A program made the translations under genes and the position numbers. Of a stretch of DNA of 64,000 bases, positions 1,110 to 6,053 are shown piece by piece; the stretch's first letter is position 1, and the number at the start of each line of letters is the position of its first letter. The notes under the pieces were generated by a model. It was not told where the DNA came from, made no database searches, and was given only the letters and a program-made list of their open reading frames with translations. The stretch is from positions 3,474,001 through 3,538,000 of the forward strand of contig NZ_CP119566.1 in assembly GCF_029277445.1 (NCBI RefSeq), read 5' to 3'. The stretch comes from Pararhizobium qamdonense. GTDB lineage: Bacteria; Pseudomonadota; Alphaproteobacteria; Rhizobiales; Rhizobiaceae.

Positions 1110-3452
1110 ATGTTGATTTTGTTGACGGCCATCGTCTTCGCACTGATCGGGCTTGGGCTCGGCGGCGGCGGGCTTTGGCTCATCGTGCTCGGCGGCAGCT
1201 GGTATTATGCCATTGCCGGCCTCGGCTTCCTCATCACCGCCTTTCTCCTGTTGGCGCGGCGCGGCGCAGCACTCACCGTCTATGCGCTTTTGATCATCGG
1301 CACGCTCGCCTGGGCGATCTGGGAAGTCGGCTTCGACTGGTGGCAGCTTGGACCGCGCGGCGGCGTCATCATCCTGCTCGGCCTCTGGCTGCTGTTGCCG
1401 GCCATCCGCCGCGGCCTTGGCTTTGTCAGCCCGACCGGCCAGGTCTACAAGGCCAGCGCCCTGCCGCTCGGCCTTGCCGTGATCGCCTCGATCGCCGTTG
1501 CCGGCTACTCGATGACGCAGGACCCGCTTGATCTTGCCGGCGAACTGCCGGTTGGAACGGCGACCGCAGCTGCCGATCTCGGCGGCAATGTCCCCGACGG
1601 CGAATGGCACCAATATGGCCGCACGCCCTATGGCCAGCGCTATTCGCCGCTCTCGCAGATCACGCCTGGCAATGTGGGCACCCTGCAGGAGGCCTGGCAA
1701 TATCAGACCGGCGACGTGAAGCGCCCCGACGATGTCGGCGAAACCACTTATCAGGTGACGCCGCTGAAAATCCACGACACGCTCTACATGTGCACGCCGC
1801 ACAACCTGGCAATTGCGCTCGATGCGGCGACCGGCAAGGAAAAATGGAAGTTCGACGCCAATTCCGGCATGAACCCGGACCGGCAGCACCAGACCTGCCG
1901 TGGCGTGACCTATTATGCCGATCCGGCCGCCGTGGCCGGCAGTGCCTGCGCCGAACGGGTCTATCTGCCGACCGCCGATGCACGGCTGATCGCGCTCGAT
2001 GCCGCCAATGGCAAGGTCTGCGAGAGCTTTGCCGAAAAGGGGACGCTGCATCTTGAAAAAGGCATGCAGTACAATCCGGCCGGCTATTATTACTCTACCT
2101 CGCCGCCGGTGATCACCGCCGGCAAGATCATCATCGGCGGTGCCGTCAACGACAACTATTCGACGCAGGAACAATCCGGCGTCATCCGCGCCTTCGACGT
2201 CAACAGCGGCGCGCTGATCTGGAACTGGGACAGCGGCAATCCGGACGTAACGACGCCCCTGCCGGAAGGCCAGACCTACACGACCAACTCGCCCAACAGC
2301 TGGTCCGTGTTCAGCTATGACGACAAGCTCAACCTTGTCTTCATCCCGCTTGGCAACCAGGTGCCCGACCAGCTCGGCATGAACCGAAGCGAGCATGTGG
2401 AGAAATATTCCTCGTCGATCGTGGCGCTGGATATCACCACAGGCGCCGTCCGCTGGGTGCGCCAGACCGTGCATCACGATCTCTGGGACATGGACGTTCC
2501 CGCCCAGCCGGTGCTGCTCGACATTACCGGCAAGGACGGCCAGCCGGTTCCGGCCCTTGTCGGCCCTACCAAGCAGGGTGATATCTACGTGCTCGACCGG
2601 CGCACCGGCGAGCCGATCATCCCGGTCAAGGAGATCCCGGCCCCGACCGGCGCAATCGCCGAGGATTTCACCGCGCCGACACAGCCGATCTCCGACCTCA
2701 CCTTCTCGCCGCCACCCTTGACGGACAAGAACATGTGGGGCGTGACGATGTTCGACCAGCTCGCCTGCCGGATCGACTTCAAGCGGCTGAAATATGAAGG
2801 CCGCTACACGCCGCCATCGCTGCAAGGCAGCCTGATCTATCCCGGCAATTTCGGCACGTTCAACTGGGGCTCGGTCGCGGTCGATCCCGAACGGCAGGTG
2901 ATGTTCGGCATGCCGACCTATCTGGCCTTCACCTCCAGGCTCGTGCCGCGCGACCAGATCCCGGCCAAGGGGCAGGATGAGAAGGGTTCCGAACAGGGCC
3001 TCAACCGCAATGACGGCGCACCTTACGGCGTCTTCATGGGGCCGTTCCTCGGGCCGCTTGGCATTCCCTGCCAGGCGCCGCCATGGGGCTATGTCGCCGG
3101 GGCCGATCTCAAGACCGGCCAGATCGCCTACAAGCACAGGAACGGCACCGTGCGGGACATGACGCCGCTGCCCCTGCCCTTCAAGGTCGGCGTGCCCGGC
3201 ATCGGCGGCCCGATGATCACCAAGGGCGGCGTCGCCTTCCTGGGAGCTGCCGTCGACAACTATATCCGCGCCTATGAGCTGACCACCGGCAAGGTGCTGT
3301 GGGAAGGCCGACTGCCCGCCGGCGGGCAGTCCACCCCGATGAGCTACGCCACCGATGACGGCACCCAGTTCGTCCTGATCGTCGCCGGCGGCCACGGCTC
3401 TGTCGGCACCAAGCCGGGCGACTACGTGATCGCCTACAAGCTGGCGAAGTAA
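1110..3452 (+). CDS. gcd: Membrane-bound PQQ-dependent glucose dehydrogenase
   Basis: 780 residues, the usual length of quinoprotein glucose/quinate dehydrogenases. It oxidises glucose to gluconolactone in the periplasm and passes electrons to ubiquinone. Residues 1-145 hold about five membrane helices. The rest is the eight-bladed quinoprotein propeller, with the signature stretch HHDLWDMDVPAQP near residue 452 and repeated blade motifs (GKEKWKFD, GALIWNWD, GKVLWEGR). A GGGAGA ribosome site lies 7-8 bases before the ATG. No pqq biosynthesis gene is in the window, so the cofactor must come from elsewhere. The fine substrate (glucose versus quinate/shikimate) is inferred from overall similarity. 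A strong terminator follows directly. Confidence 0.9.
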   Translation: MLILLTAIVFALIGLGLGGGGLWLIVLGGSWYYAIAGLGFLITAFLLLARRGAALTVYALLIIGTLAWAIWEVGFDWWQLGPRGGVIILLGLWLLLPAIRRGLGFVSPTGQVYKASALPLGLAVIASIAVAGYSMTQDPLDLAGELPVGTATAAADLGGNVPDGEWHQYGRTPYGQRYSPLSQITPGNVGTLQEAWQYQTGDVKRPDDVGETTYQVTPLKIHDTLYMCTPHNLAIALDAATGKEKWKFDANSGMNPDRQHQTCRGVTYYADPAAVAGSACAERVYLPTADARLIALDAANGKVCESFAEKGTLHLEKGMQYNPAGYYYSTSPPVITAGKIIIGGAVNDNYSTQEQSGVIRAFDVNSGALIWNWDSGNPDVTTPLPEGQTYTTNSPNSWSVFSYDDKLNLVFIPLGNQVPDQLGMNRSEHVEKYSSSIVALDITTGAVRWVRQTVHHDLWDMDVPAQPVLLDITGKDGQPVPALVGPTKQGDIYVLDRRTGEPIIPVKEIPAPTGAIAEDFTAPTQPISDLTFSPPPLTDKNMWGVTMFDQLACRIDFKRLKYEGRYTPPSLQGSLIYPGNFGTFNWGSVAVDPERQVMFGMPTYLAFTSRLVPRDQIPAKGQDEKGSEQGLNRNDGAPYGVFMGPFLGPLGIPCQAPPWGYVAGADLKTGQIAYKHRNGTVRDMTPLPLPFKVGVPGIGGPMITKGGVAFLGAAVDNYIRAYELTTGKVLWEGRLPAGGQSTPMSYATDDGTQFVLIVAGGHGSVGTKPGDYVIAYKLAK

Positions 3453-3557: not shown

Positions 3558-4442
3558 TTAACCCACCATGGCGGCGATCAGTTTGCCCACGTCGGCGAAA
3601 ACCGGCTCCAGCTCCTTCGTCGGCTTCTTGCCCTCGGCGATATAGACGGAGACGAGGATGGTGTGGTTTTCGGAGGGCCGCACGAAGCCGATGTCGCCGG
3701 CTTCGCCGTGGCCGCTGGTGCCGGTCTTTTCACCGATCGTCCAAGTTTTCGGAAGCCCTGCGCGCAGGCGTTTGGCACCCGTCGTATTGGCGACAAGCCA
3801 GGCGGTAAACTGGTCGCGGGACGCTGTCGATAGCGTGTCGCCGAGTAGGAGCTTGCCGAGCGTCTCCGTCATCGCCTTTGGCGTCGTCGTATCACGGGGA
3901 TCGCCGATCTTGGCCTCGTTGAGTTCCGGCTCCCAGCGGTCGAGGCGGGTGGTGGCGTCACCGATCGTGCGCAGCCAGTCCGTCAGCCCCTTGGGGCCGC
4001 CGAAGCTTGCCAGAAGCAGGTTGGCCGCCGCATTGTCGCTCAACGTGACAGCGGCATCGCAGAGTTCGCGCACCGTCATGGCGCCGCCGACACGCTTTTC
4101 GACGGCGGGCGAATAGGTCAAAAGATGCTTCTTGGTAATCTGCACCTTGCGGTCGAGCTTTTCCTCGCCCTTGTCGGCGCGCGCGAGCACGCAGGCCGCC
4201 GCCAGCGCCTTGAAGGTCGAGCACATGGCAAAGCGCTCGTCCGGCCGGTGGGAAAAGGATGCCTTGGTTTTCGTATCGAGGACGTAGACGCCGAGACGTC
4301 CGCCAGTTTGTTTTTCGAGTGCTGCCAATTGCTTTTCGATGTCTTTTCCAGCCGCAAGGACCGTTTGCGGCGCAAGGCCGATGCCGGGCAGCAACAGGCC
4401 GGAGCCGATGAGGAAGGAGCGGCGATTGAACGTGAACGACAT
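3558..4442 (-). CDS. Class A beta-lactamase, Tat-exported
   Basis: 294 residues. Serine hydrolase that opens penicillin/cephalosporin rings in the periplasm. All class A landmarks are present: S75-T-F-K78 (active serine), S135-D-N137, E171-P-E-L-N175 (the general-base Omega-loop glutamate) and K239-T-G-T242. The N-terminus NRRSFLIGSG is a twin-arginine signal, so export is by Tat, as for several chromosomal alphaproteobacterial and mycobacterial enzymes. Cys74 precedes the serine, but the residue aligning with Ambler 238 is Ser, so the carbapenemase-type 69-238 disulfide is absent. No adjacent ampR-like regulator is seen. GGGAGA ribosome site upstream of the ATG. Substrate spectrum cannot be read from sequence. 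Confidence 0.93.
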   Translation of the reverse strand: MSFTFNRRSFLIGSGLLLPGIGLAPQTVLAAGKDIEKQLAALEKQTGGRLGVYVLDTKTKASFSHRPDERFAMCSTFKALAAACVLARADKGEEKLDRKVQITKKHLLTYSPAVEKRVGGAMTVRELCDAAVTLSDNAAANLLLASFGGPKGLTDWLRTIGDATTRLDRWEPELNEAKIGDPRDTTTPKAMTETLGKLLLGDTLSTASRDQFTAWLVANTTGAKRLRAGLPKTWTIGEKTGTSGHGEAGDIGFVRPSENHTILVSVYIAEGKKPTKELEPVFADVGKLIAAMVG

Positions 4443-4671
4443 GCGATGGGGTCTCCCTGGATCATTGTGCGCGCAGCCAAGAGCTTGATTGTGATCACTT
4501 ATATAAGCAATTACTCAATCAGATATGATGCGCTGGAGGCCATGGGTAGGGAGCGAATGTGGCCGGTCTTGGCCGGAAAGATGGCCGTTCAAAATCTTGT
4601 TTCCGCCGCAAAAATTAACAGGCCTCAGAATCCCCGTTGACATTTGTGCGGAAAAGGCGACATTGCCCGCC

Positions 4672-4722
4672 ATGATCAGAACCGCAAACATCGCCCGCTG
4701 GTATTTTACGCTGCTCCCATAG
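4672..4722 (+). CDS. Leader peptide MIRTANIARWYFTLLP with consecutive Trp-Tyr-Phe codons
   Basis: A 16-codon reading frame. Codons 10-12 are TGG TAT TTT (4699-4707), one of each aromatic amino acid in a row. It ends with TAG at 4720-4722, one base before the first strand of a set of competing hairpins and 27 bases before a terminator stem. This is the layout of a transcription-attenuation leader, in which ribosome stalling at scarce charged tRNAs decides antitermination. The ribosome site is weak (AAAGG about 15 bases upstream). Peptide expression is an inference. Confidence 0.7.
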   Translation: MIRTANIARWYFTLLP

Positions 4723-4776
4723 GTGCGGCTGTCTGATCTCGTTCAAACAAGCCGCCATCAGGCGGCTTTTGTTTTT
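4682..4776 (+). promoter_or_regulatory. Ribosome-dependent transcription attenuator upstream of the GNAT gene
   Basis: Four strands can be assigned. Strand 1 is CCGCA 4682-4686; strand 2 is TGCGGCT 4724-4730; strand 3 is AGCCGCC 4750-4756; strand 4 is GGCGGCT 4761-4767, followed by a T-rich run. 1:2 leaves 3:4 (terminator) free to form; 2:3 (GCGGCT with AGCCGC) is the antiterminator. A ribosome stalled on the WYF codons would cover strand 1 and favour 2:3. A ribosome reaching the stop codon would cover strand 2 and favour termination. The control signal would therefore be aromatic aminoacyl-tRNA supply. Confidence 0.68.
4749..4776 (+). terminator. Attenuator terminator hairpin
   Basis: AAGCCGCC/GGCGGCTT eight-base-pair stem with an ATCA loop, followed by TTGTTTTT. 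It lies 41 bases before the acetyltransferase start codon and after the leader peptide, with no larger gene upstream on this strand for it to terminate. Confidence 0.8.
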
Positions 4777-4817
4777 GGACGGCACCTGATGGCGGGAAAG
4801 CCATAAGGAGCCATCAT

Positions 4818-5309
4818 ATGCTGCAGACCCTTCCTCTTGCGCCCGCCATCCGCGCCCCGATGGTCACCATCCGCACCGCCAAGCAGCGCGACTTGCCTGC
4901 ACTGCGAGAACTGATCAGCGAACTTGCCGCCCATCACGGCGACGCCGCCGCCGTGACACCCGAAAATCTTGAGCGCGACCTGTTCGGCCGCATGCCGTGG
5001 ATCACGGCGCTGGTGGCCGAGGCTGCGGGCGAACTGATCGGCTACGCCATCCTCGTGCCGCTCTACCGCGCCCAGCAGGGTGCGCGCGGCATGGAACTGC
5101 ACCATCTCTACGTGCGCAGCGCCCATCGCGGCACCGGCATCGGCCGCCACCTCGTTGCCAAGGCCCGCGAGCAGGCACGCATGGCCGGCGCCACCTATCT
5201 CTCCGTCAGCGCTGCCACCGGCAATTTCCAGGCGCACCGCTTCTACGAATCGGAAAACTTCACGCCCGGCCCAGTTACCGGCATGCGCTACCTGCAGACG
5301 CTGGCGTAA
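4818..5309 (+). CDS. GNAT-family N-acetyltransferase
   Basis: 163 residues. Transfers acetyl from acetyl-CoA to an unidentified amine. Motif A of the Gcn5 fold, R104-G-T-G-I-G-R110, binds the CoA pyrophosphate. The preceding strand MELHHLYVR and the following HRFYESENF are typical of small-molecule acetyltransferases. The start at 4818 is supported by AAGGAG 8 bases upstream, although the family core begins at MVTIRTAK (residue 15). It is preceded by the WYF attenuator, which suggests induction when an aromatic amino acid is limiting. The substrate could therefore be linked to aromatic metabolism, but that is inference. Confidence 0.85.
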   Translation: MLQTLPLAPAIRAPMVTIRTAKQRDLPALRELISELAAHHGDAAAVTPENLERDLFGRMPWITALVAEAAGELIGYAILVPLYRAQQGARGMELHHLYVRSAHRGTGIGRHLVAKAREQARMAGATYLSVSAATGNFQAHRFYESENFTPGPVTGMRYLQTLA

Positions 5310-5648: not shown

Positions 5649-6053
5649 ATGCGCAATTATATCGGACTGATCCACAAGGACCCCGGCAGCGACTATGGCG
5701 TGTCCTTTCCCGATTTTCCCGGCGTGATCTCGGCAGGCACCGATCTCGACGACGCCCGGCAGATGGCGAGCGAAGCTTTGGCATTTCATTTGGAAGGTCT
5801 GGTTGAGGATGGATCCAACATTCCAGAGCCCTCCAGCCTCGAAAACATCATGGCCGATGCGGACAACAGAAAAGGCGTTGCCATTCTTGTCGGAGTGAGG
5901 ATGGAGACGAAGAAGGCTGTGCGTGTCAATGTCACGCTTCCGGAAGATGTTCTTCGCCAGATTGACCGGTTTGCCGAATCCAAGGGATTGACGCGGTCCG
6001 GGTTCATCGCGCTTGCCGCCCTGCACGAGATCGACCGGGACGATGCGGCCTGA
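5649..6053 (+). CDS. hicB: HicB-family antitoxin
   Basis: 134 residues. The N-terminal part (DYGVSFPDFPGVISAG, residues ~15-30) is the partially degraded RNase-H fold that masks HicA. The C-terminal part (VRVNVTLPEDVLRQIDRFAESKGLTRSGFI, shown in segments near residues 92-122) is a ribbon-helix-helix DNA-binding region. A TGAGGT ribosome site overlaps the hicA stop, so translation is probably coupled. It is expected to neutralise HicA and repress from the 5424-5449 palindrome. Confidence 0.88.
   Translation: MRNYIGLIHKDPGSDYGVSFPDFPGVISAGTDLDDARQMASEALAFHLEGLVEDGSNIPEPSSLENIMADADNRKGVAILVGVRMETKKAVRVNVTLPEDVLRQIDRFAESKGLTRSGFIALAALHEIDRDDAA

Follow-up and report, generated by a model that had tools for sequence, protein, structure and literature searches.

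Among the closest described systems is the trpL-trpE(G)/rnTrpL attenuator of Sinorhizobium meliloti, which comes from the same bacterial family as the DNA analysed here and likewise combines a leaderless short open reading frame (ORF), control codons near the end of that frame, an antiterminator and a terminator. It differs in that its control codons are three Trp codons only and in that its target gene is biosynthetic. The pheA, pheST and trp leaders of Escherichia coli also differ, since they respond to a single amino acid each, and they are not known to have a downstream strand that reports to the Shine-Dalgarno (SD) sequence. T-boxes bind tRNA directly. As described in the available text of PMC11802643, the E. 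coli leaders work by ribosome-mediated attenuation through charged aromatic tRNAs, the mode of control proposed below, and the AroR leader of Corynebacterium glutamicum, which lies before aroF and carries Phe-Tyr-Phe, works by ribosome stalling (Neshat et al. 2014). AroR resembles the leaders considered here in its mixed aromatic codons and gates entry into aromatic synthesis, but no Trp is among its named residues, it is reported to respond to Phe and not to Tyr, and its target is a DAHP synthase in an unrelated bacterium (same portion of PMC11802643). An earlier note on the present DNA, which had held that every known attenuator senses either a single amino acid or a branched set, was thus too strongly worded.

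Amino-acid control tied to masking of the SD sequence has been predicted for the LEU element of Actinobacteria and for translational ileS T-boxes (PMC1262725, in its accessible sections). In the LEU element, however, the Leu codons themselves pair with the SD sequence, and their mutation is said not to alter regulation; relay of a leader-peptide terminator decision to the SD sequence is not described in those sections of PMC1262725. In the open literature, no account of the leader analysed here or of a three-aromatic attenuator was found in the texts as available, and the available main text of a terminator survey (PMC2965389) lacks rhizobia and acetyltransferase terms.

The window (the whole 64,000-nucleotide stretch of Pararhizobium qamdonense DNA that was analysed) contains a 16-codon ORF with adjacent Trp, Tyr and Phe codons, followed by strands of the trp attenuator type and a GNAT gene (Table 1). 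The ORF had been described in the earlier note, and the observation is confirmed: among the 489 short ATG ORFs (10-25 codons) of the 64-kb window it is the only one in which the three codons are adjacent, and the adjacency does not occur in any of 11,089 short ATG ORFs from 20 first-order Markov random windows. The leader features in Table 1 very probably constitute a ribosome-mediated attenuator that senses the charging of the three aromatic tRNAs and controls one GNAT gene, which apparently is monocistronic. They suggest that this gene would be switched on when any aromatic amino acid runs short.

Table 1 Features of the leader, the acetyltransferase gene and their neighbours in the window.
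Feature	Position	Strand	Remarks
Membrane-bound PQQ dehydrogenase, glucose/quinate/shikimate family	1110-3452	+	TIGR03074
Class A beta-lactamase	3558-4442	-	NF033103, 329.8 bits (cut-off 200); divergent from leader promoter
-35 element TTGACA of leader promoter	4637-4642	+	Conserved position upstream of ATG
Putative -10, ACATTG	~4660-4665	+	Weak in the window
Leader ORF MIRTANIARWYFTLLP	4672-4722	+	16 codons, stop TAG; TGG TAT TTT are codons 10-12
Strand 1, GATCAGA	4674-4680	+	Overlaps codons 1-3; pairs with strand 2b
Strand 2a, GCGGCT	4725-4730	+	Antiterminator arm directly 3' of stop codon; pairs with 4750-4755
Strand 2b, TCTGATC	4732-4738	+	Partner of strand 1
Strand 3, AAGCCGCC	4749-4756	+	Common to antiterminator (2:3), terminator (3:4) and 3:5 hairpin
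Terminator loop ATCA	4757-4760	+	Covaries with strand 5
Strand 4 GGCGGCTT and U-tract	4761-4776	+	Intrinsic terminator
Anti-SD strand GGCACC	4781-4786	+	Overlaps 5' end of strand 5; covaries with SD region
Strand 5, CCTGATGGCGG	4785-4795	+	Complement of CCGCCATCAGG (4752-4762), which takes in the core of strand 3, the loop and two strand 4 bases
SD region of GNAT gene, AAGGAGCC (strand 6)	4805-4812	+	
GNAT-family N-acetyltransferase, 163 aa	4818-5309	+	Pfam PF00583, 60.2 bits (gathering cut-off 20.7)
HicB-like antitoxin	5649-6053	+	PF15919

Conservation of the leader was assessed at related acetyltransferase genes. Scanning with one genome for each species yielded 89 confirmed relatives, and a short upstream ORF with an aromatic cluster precedes the gene at all 80 of the best 80 loci that were kept. 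With 33 further loci and the window itself, the leader is present at 112 of 114 loci, a count that includes redundancy because several of the added loci repeat genomes of the 80-locus set. The additions comprise 30 of the 31 loci of a family set and three loci from an order-wide search (297 genomes, seven matches); 31 of these 33 carry the leader, and no leader was found at the other two (L119 and L120), both of which are 38-39% identical homologues in other families. The GNAT gene itself occurs in 31 of 151 evenly drawn genomes of the family (E up to 1e-25). Strong matches to an RNA model (R1) that was built from the GNAT leaders and used to find similar layouts (E up to 6.3e-11; 152 genomes) coincide precisely with these 31 loci, apart from one further copy, most of the matched sequences, or close kin, having contributed to the model. 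A strict WYF-leader pattern has a single match in the window's own genome, and a search of the window against Rfam gave zero matches at the gathering score. The tie between leader and orthologous GNAT genes, which the earlier note had left for comparison among rhizobia, is therefore borne out.

The control codons are retained in a flexible order. Trp, Tyr and Phe are all present in 111 of the 112 leaders, arranged as WYF, YFW or WFYY; the sole exception (L111) has Tyr-Phe without Trp. Among 70 distinct leader ORFs, 69 contain all three residues (56 as YFW and 13 as WYF), the third order being that of L118, which lies outside this count, and at least three changes of order are required on the gene tree. 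The triad occupies codons 10-12, 11-13 or 12-14 of 16-17 in 69 of the 70 distinct ORFs, and most other leader residues vary while it is kept; conservation at the N-terminal end of the leader is partly explained by strand 1. The synonymous choice is also distinctive. In the same 70 ORFs, Phe within the cluster is always encoded by TTT (70 of 70) and Tyr within it by TAT in 68 of 70, whereas outside the cluster Phe is TTC (37/37) and Tyr is TAC (20/20). The GNAT genes prefer TTC (320, against 11 TTT) and TAC (251, against 68 TAT). The cluster thus retains non-preferred codons, which are presumably slow, and the leader codons do not vary freely.

Because the triad is reordered yet retained, sensing of tRNA charging is favoured over a nascent-chain arrest motif. 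An arrest leader of the erm/cat type was considered and rejected: it calls for a fixed peptide motif, and the aromatic codons here are permuted as listed above. A wider version of that idea, in which the leader senses a ribosome-targeting compound through nascent-chain arrest and the GNAT protein is an inducible resistance enzyme on erm/cat logic, is improbable. It draws on drug-induced leaders before resistance genes, which are a known class, on the antibiotic acetyltransferases included among GNAT families (to which the matches are weak) and on the class A beta-lactamase gene that adjoins in the window. However, an arrest motif would hardly tolerate reordering between clades, the TTT/TAT choice kept at the cluster alone points to codons and not residues, Tyr-Tyr is found on the same RNA scaffold upstream of tyrS (see below), and no NCBIfam resistance model is reached at its cut-off. 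We regard as very improbable the suggestion that what counts is the peptide product of the leader, or the general speed of translation, and that the aromatic codons are incidental; the peptide peTrpL is an example of a leader product with its own functions (PMC7298713, in the part available), but the near-universal triad persists here while most of the surrounding peptide changes.

The leader appears to be transcribed from its own promoter. TTGAC is found 34-36 nt upstream of the leader ATG in all 111 parsed loci of the 114 examined, with a parser tolerance of 33-37 nt before the ATG, and this fixed spacing suggests that the transcript is probably leaderless. A leaderless transcript has been reported for trpL of S. 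meliloti (PMC10117765 and PMC7298713, in the sections available). A scan for the sigma-70 consensus found no promoter, so the call of the -35 element rests on its positional conservation. In Ensifer aridi (L026) the -10 place is taken by AATCTA.

The RNA at 4650-4820 folds at -65 kcal/mol, compared with -51.9 (sd 4.3) for shuffled sequences (z -3.08), and none of 200 dinucleotide shuffles is as low. The terminator hairpin (AAGCCGCC-ATCA-GGCGGCTT at 4749-4768, then the U-tract) agrees with the good terminator noted earlier and was parsed in 111 of 114 loci; L118 was aligned by hand, and L119 and L120 are the leaderless loci. One of the 111 (L114) has kept the hairpin and is missing the U-tract. 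In a 48-sequence alignment, the covariation score of the whole off-state exceeds that of all 500 shuffles. Loci L096 and L112, which have long spacers, are absent from alignment A2.

When the pairings among strands 1-4 are taken individually, the covariation that had been proposed as a check is found for 1:2. The 1:2 pairing (4674-4680 with 4732-4738) shows rare two-sided changes, at least four over three varying pairs on the gene tree, and its first four pairs are formed in 98.4% of cells and the fifth in 56.3% of cells of the 48-sequence alignment. In contrast, the five core pairs of 2:3 are possible in 99.2% of cells of the same alignment and are nearly invariant, so that covariation speaks neither for nor against 2:3; the core of 3:4 likewise hardly varies and gains no covariation support. 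Such near-invariance is expected if one strand has three partners, although it is not proof.

Two further elements, strand 5 and an anti-SD strand, are new here and come on top of strands 1-4; both of their pairings covary. Strand 5 changes along with the terminator loop. The anti-SD strand pairs with 4807-4812, with one A.A mismatch in the window, and GGCACC/GGAGCC at these positions is replaced by GCGTCC/GGACGC in the R. tropici group. Across the 48-sequence alignment, 86.7% of cells are paired for 3:5 and 75-78% for 5:6. For 3:5, three of five covariation measures are reached by 0 of 500 shuffles and the other two by 18 and 6 of 500. When partners are swapped among 75 representatives, within-locus pairing is stronger than pairing between loci both for 3:5 (mean -20.5 vs -18.4) and for 5:6 (-14.3 vs -12.5), and in each case none of 5000 permutations, which ignore relatedness, reaches the observed mean; L084, for which no start was parsed, was dropped, and the gene start of L116 is wrong in this comparison, which weakens its 5:6. 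On the gene tree, the minimum number of two-sided changes is 13 over four varying 3:5 pairs and five over three 5:6 pairs, with rows lacking a Watson-Crick pair at a column pair omitted (37 of 48 rows used at 105:149, for example). The tree is a quick one in which 18 of 45 inner branches are weak and, as the permutations ignore relatedness, these counts are supporting and not exact. In the window itself, the pairing energy of strand 5 is reached by 0 of 300 tail shuffles. No printed account of a strand like this was found in the open literature, as far as its texts were available.

The overlap of strand 5 with the anti-SD strand suggests that formation of 3:5 would open the ribosome-binding site of the GNAT gene, and since both strands covary, control probably extends to translation. 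When the alternative states are forced in silico, 3:5 leaves the SD sequence more open than 3:4 does in 45 of 48 sequences, and more open than 2:3 does in 44 of 48. Computed stability places 3:4 above 3:5 in 46 of 48 sequences. The energies of 3:5 and 2:3 are near even, with 3:5 favoured in 31 of 48 and a tie in the window, where 3:5 comes out ahead of 2:3 by 2.4 if a longer stretch is folded. The 3:5 pairing has decayed in L111 (-7.6 kcal/mol) and is also weak in L085 and L105. L114, having lost its U-tract, keeps both 3:5 and 5:6, with a perfect SD-masking pair (ACGTCCC/GGGACGT). Such retention would follow if the downstream part had a use of its own, and the L114 leader is possibly a purely translational version.

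The attenuator claimed in the earlier note is strongly supported through its conservation, but the word classical is incomplete, since strand 5 and the anti-SD strand covary as well. One could nevertheless suppose a plain four-strand transcription attenuator, in which strand 5 and the anti-SD strand do no more than reduce basal translation or stabilise the mRNA. This alternative is somewhat doubtful. Strands 1-4 are enough for control of the trp type, and the greater computed stability of 3:4 over 3:5 agrees with it, but the terminator loop, which would be free in a four-strand model, covaries with strand 5, and a strand 5 recurs in some of the leaders before tyrS, prephenate dehydrogenase and isochorismatase-family genes. 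In another alternative, the terminated leader would be released as a small RNA and its terminator loop would act in trans, in the manner of rnTrpL, by pairing with strand 5 on full-length mRNA. Complementarity between strands 3 and 5 fits action in trans as well as in cis, and rnTrpL is an attenuator RNA that starts at the trpL ATG and acts in trans on trpDC (PMC7298713, in the part available). We consider action in trans unlikely, because in the window 22 nt separate the two strands on a single RNA, an arrangement that favours pairing in cis, and because L114 keeps the pairing even though little small RNA would be expected to be released without a U-tract.

The attenuator with a strand hand-over in cis would work as follows. 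With Trp-, Tyr- and Phe-tRNA charged, the ribosome would proceed to the stop codon and cover strand 2, and the 3:4 terminator would form. With any one aromatic tRNA scarce, the ribosome would stall at codons 10-12, 2a would pair with strand 3 and RNA polymerase would read on. These stall and read-through steps are drawn from the strand anatomy and the established trp mechanism. In a putative new step, strand 5, once transcribed, would invade at the loop as a toehold and displace strand 2a from strand 3; if strand 3 were left with strand 2a, the stalled 2:3 state would keep the SD sequence masked. In the event of leaky read-through past a formed 3:4 hairpin, strand 3 would be locked, the anti-SD strand would pair with the SD sequence and the leaked mRNA would be poorly translated. 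A single stalling decision would in this way set transcription and translation together. We hold the combination of attenuator and hand-over to be a probable explanation as a whole, while for the hand-over from 2a to strand 5 with opening of the SD sequence, taken as a step of its own, the chances seem about even.

In other Hyphomicrobiales, the RNA model places the same scaffold upstream of tyrS, prephenate dehydrogenase, DAHP synthase and an isochorismatase-family gene. A search with the model gave 16 matches away from GNAT genes, all of which were examined: five at tyrS, four at prephenate dehydrogenase, two at DAHP synthase, two at the isochorismatase-family gene and three unclear. Weak matches are mostly ordinary terminators: the 10 examined among 36 comprise two prephenate dehydrogenase leaders (L124 and L127), two trpE leaders (L129, assigned by eye, and L131) and six plain terminators or unclear cases. 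Gene identity was checked with HMMs for L124, L127, L131, L135, L159, L163, L165, L166 and L169, and for the others by eye from similar sequence. Leaders with Tyr-Tyr precede tyrS at L135, L136, L137 and L141, all in genus g72 (of these, L135 is among the HMM-checked loci), and also at L157 and L158; they precede prephenate dehydrogenase at L124, L127 and L159 as well as, by eye, at L161, L162 and L170. The DAHP synthase (aroG type) of genus g74 (L169 and L171 (501-668)) has a Phe-Trp-Tyr-Phe-Tyr leader, MIHLTASFWYFYY..., which puts an all-aromatic leader at the first step of aromatic synthesis. The isochorismatase-family gene (L165 and L167) has a Phe-Tyr-Trp leader (MTTIAAPMLAKFYWRFL), and a trpE leader (MIKMMNIAKWWWAR, L131) is matched by the model with E 0.002. 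Of the arguments for amino-acid sensing, this match of codons to gene function, seen at tyrS, prephenate dehydrogenase, DAHP synthase and trpE, is the strongest.

Strand 5 recurs in part of this wider set. When compared with 300 shuffled tails, it is reached by at most 15 shuffles in 10 of 17 leaders, the window included, and it is not significant in the remaining seven (L157, 22 of 300; L166, 36; L170, 93; L169, 104; L124, 105; L171, 131; L162, 167). In L165, strand 5 is a perfect match to strand 3 over GCCGCCGTG/CACGGCGGC. For L131, 5 of 300 shuffles reach its complement resembling strand 5, on a tail with no gene start assigned.

More than one tyrS match is present in seven of the eight genomes of genus g72 that were examined, one copy in G452 being in two pieces, which makes the leader-controlled tyrS an accessory copy. 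This accessory second tyrS looks decayed in some genomes. In G071 the leader persists near a transposase-like ORF, which we take to be IS66-like, and tyrS is gone. In the window's own genome, no plausible aromatic leader was found before prephenate dehydrogenase, prephenate dehydratase, the class II DAHP synthase or the single tyrS; with these four genes leaderless, the aromatic leader logic is not pathway-wide there.

The controlled enzyme was compared with known families and structures. The GNAT protein falls below the cut-offs of all 23 NCBIfam families that it matches, the best being a HaaN-type family (58.4 bits vs a cut-off of 250), with PhnO at 39.4 vs 142, and PADLOC returned nothing for the gene. 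The nearest solved chains by profile are SSAT2 (diamine acetyltransferase 2; 2bei, E 8.5e-21), a probable N-acetyltransferase (2fe7, 1.4e-19) and a thialysine acetyltransferase (12jc, 3.2e-19). This likeness to diamine and thialysine acetyltransferases is a resemblance only and says nothing firm about the substrate. With these as its nearest relatives by profile, the aromatic-amine or aromatic amino-acid chemistry at which the earlier note had hinted finds no support in the protein sequence.

Gene neighbourhoods were compared by sequence clusters at 42 loci, over about 2.5-3 kb on each side, with profile searches for the neighbours in the window. A cytochrome c gene on the opposite strand is the commonest downstream neighbour (32 of 42 loci), a PQQ dehydrogenase of the glucose/quinate/shikimate family recurs near the GNAT gene in 12 of 42 and a relative of the beta-lactamase is near it in 11 of 42. 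Immediately upstream of the HicB-like gene in the window, a possible small HicA-like frame was seen by eye.

On the mechanism proposed above, failure of aromatic supply or of aromatic tRNA charging would lead to production of the enzyme. As a guess, the most economical role for it is the inducible removal of an amine-bearing inhibitor or metabolite. A fuller proposal is more tentative: that a six-strand attenuator with hand-over forms a scaffold reused across Hyphomicrobiales, with codons fitted to each gene, and that the rhizobial GNAT enzyme clears a compound that starves aromatic tRNA charging, for example one that bears an amine and inhibits either the shikimate pathway or an aromatic aminoacyl-tRNA synthetase. 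A leader that answers to any one of Trp, Tyr and Phe would act as a natural gauge of the output of the shikimate pathway. As it would here control an enzyme outside the known pathway, the leader offers a direct handle on the role of that enzyme. The covarying strands 5 and 6 suggest that leader-peptide attenuators can govern translation of the full mRNA besides termination, which, if true, would change the annotation of attenuators in this bacterial order.
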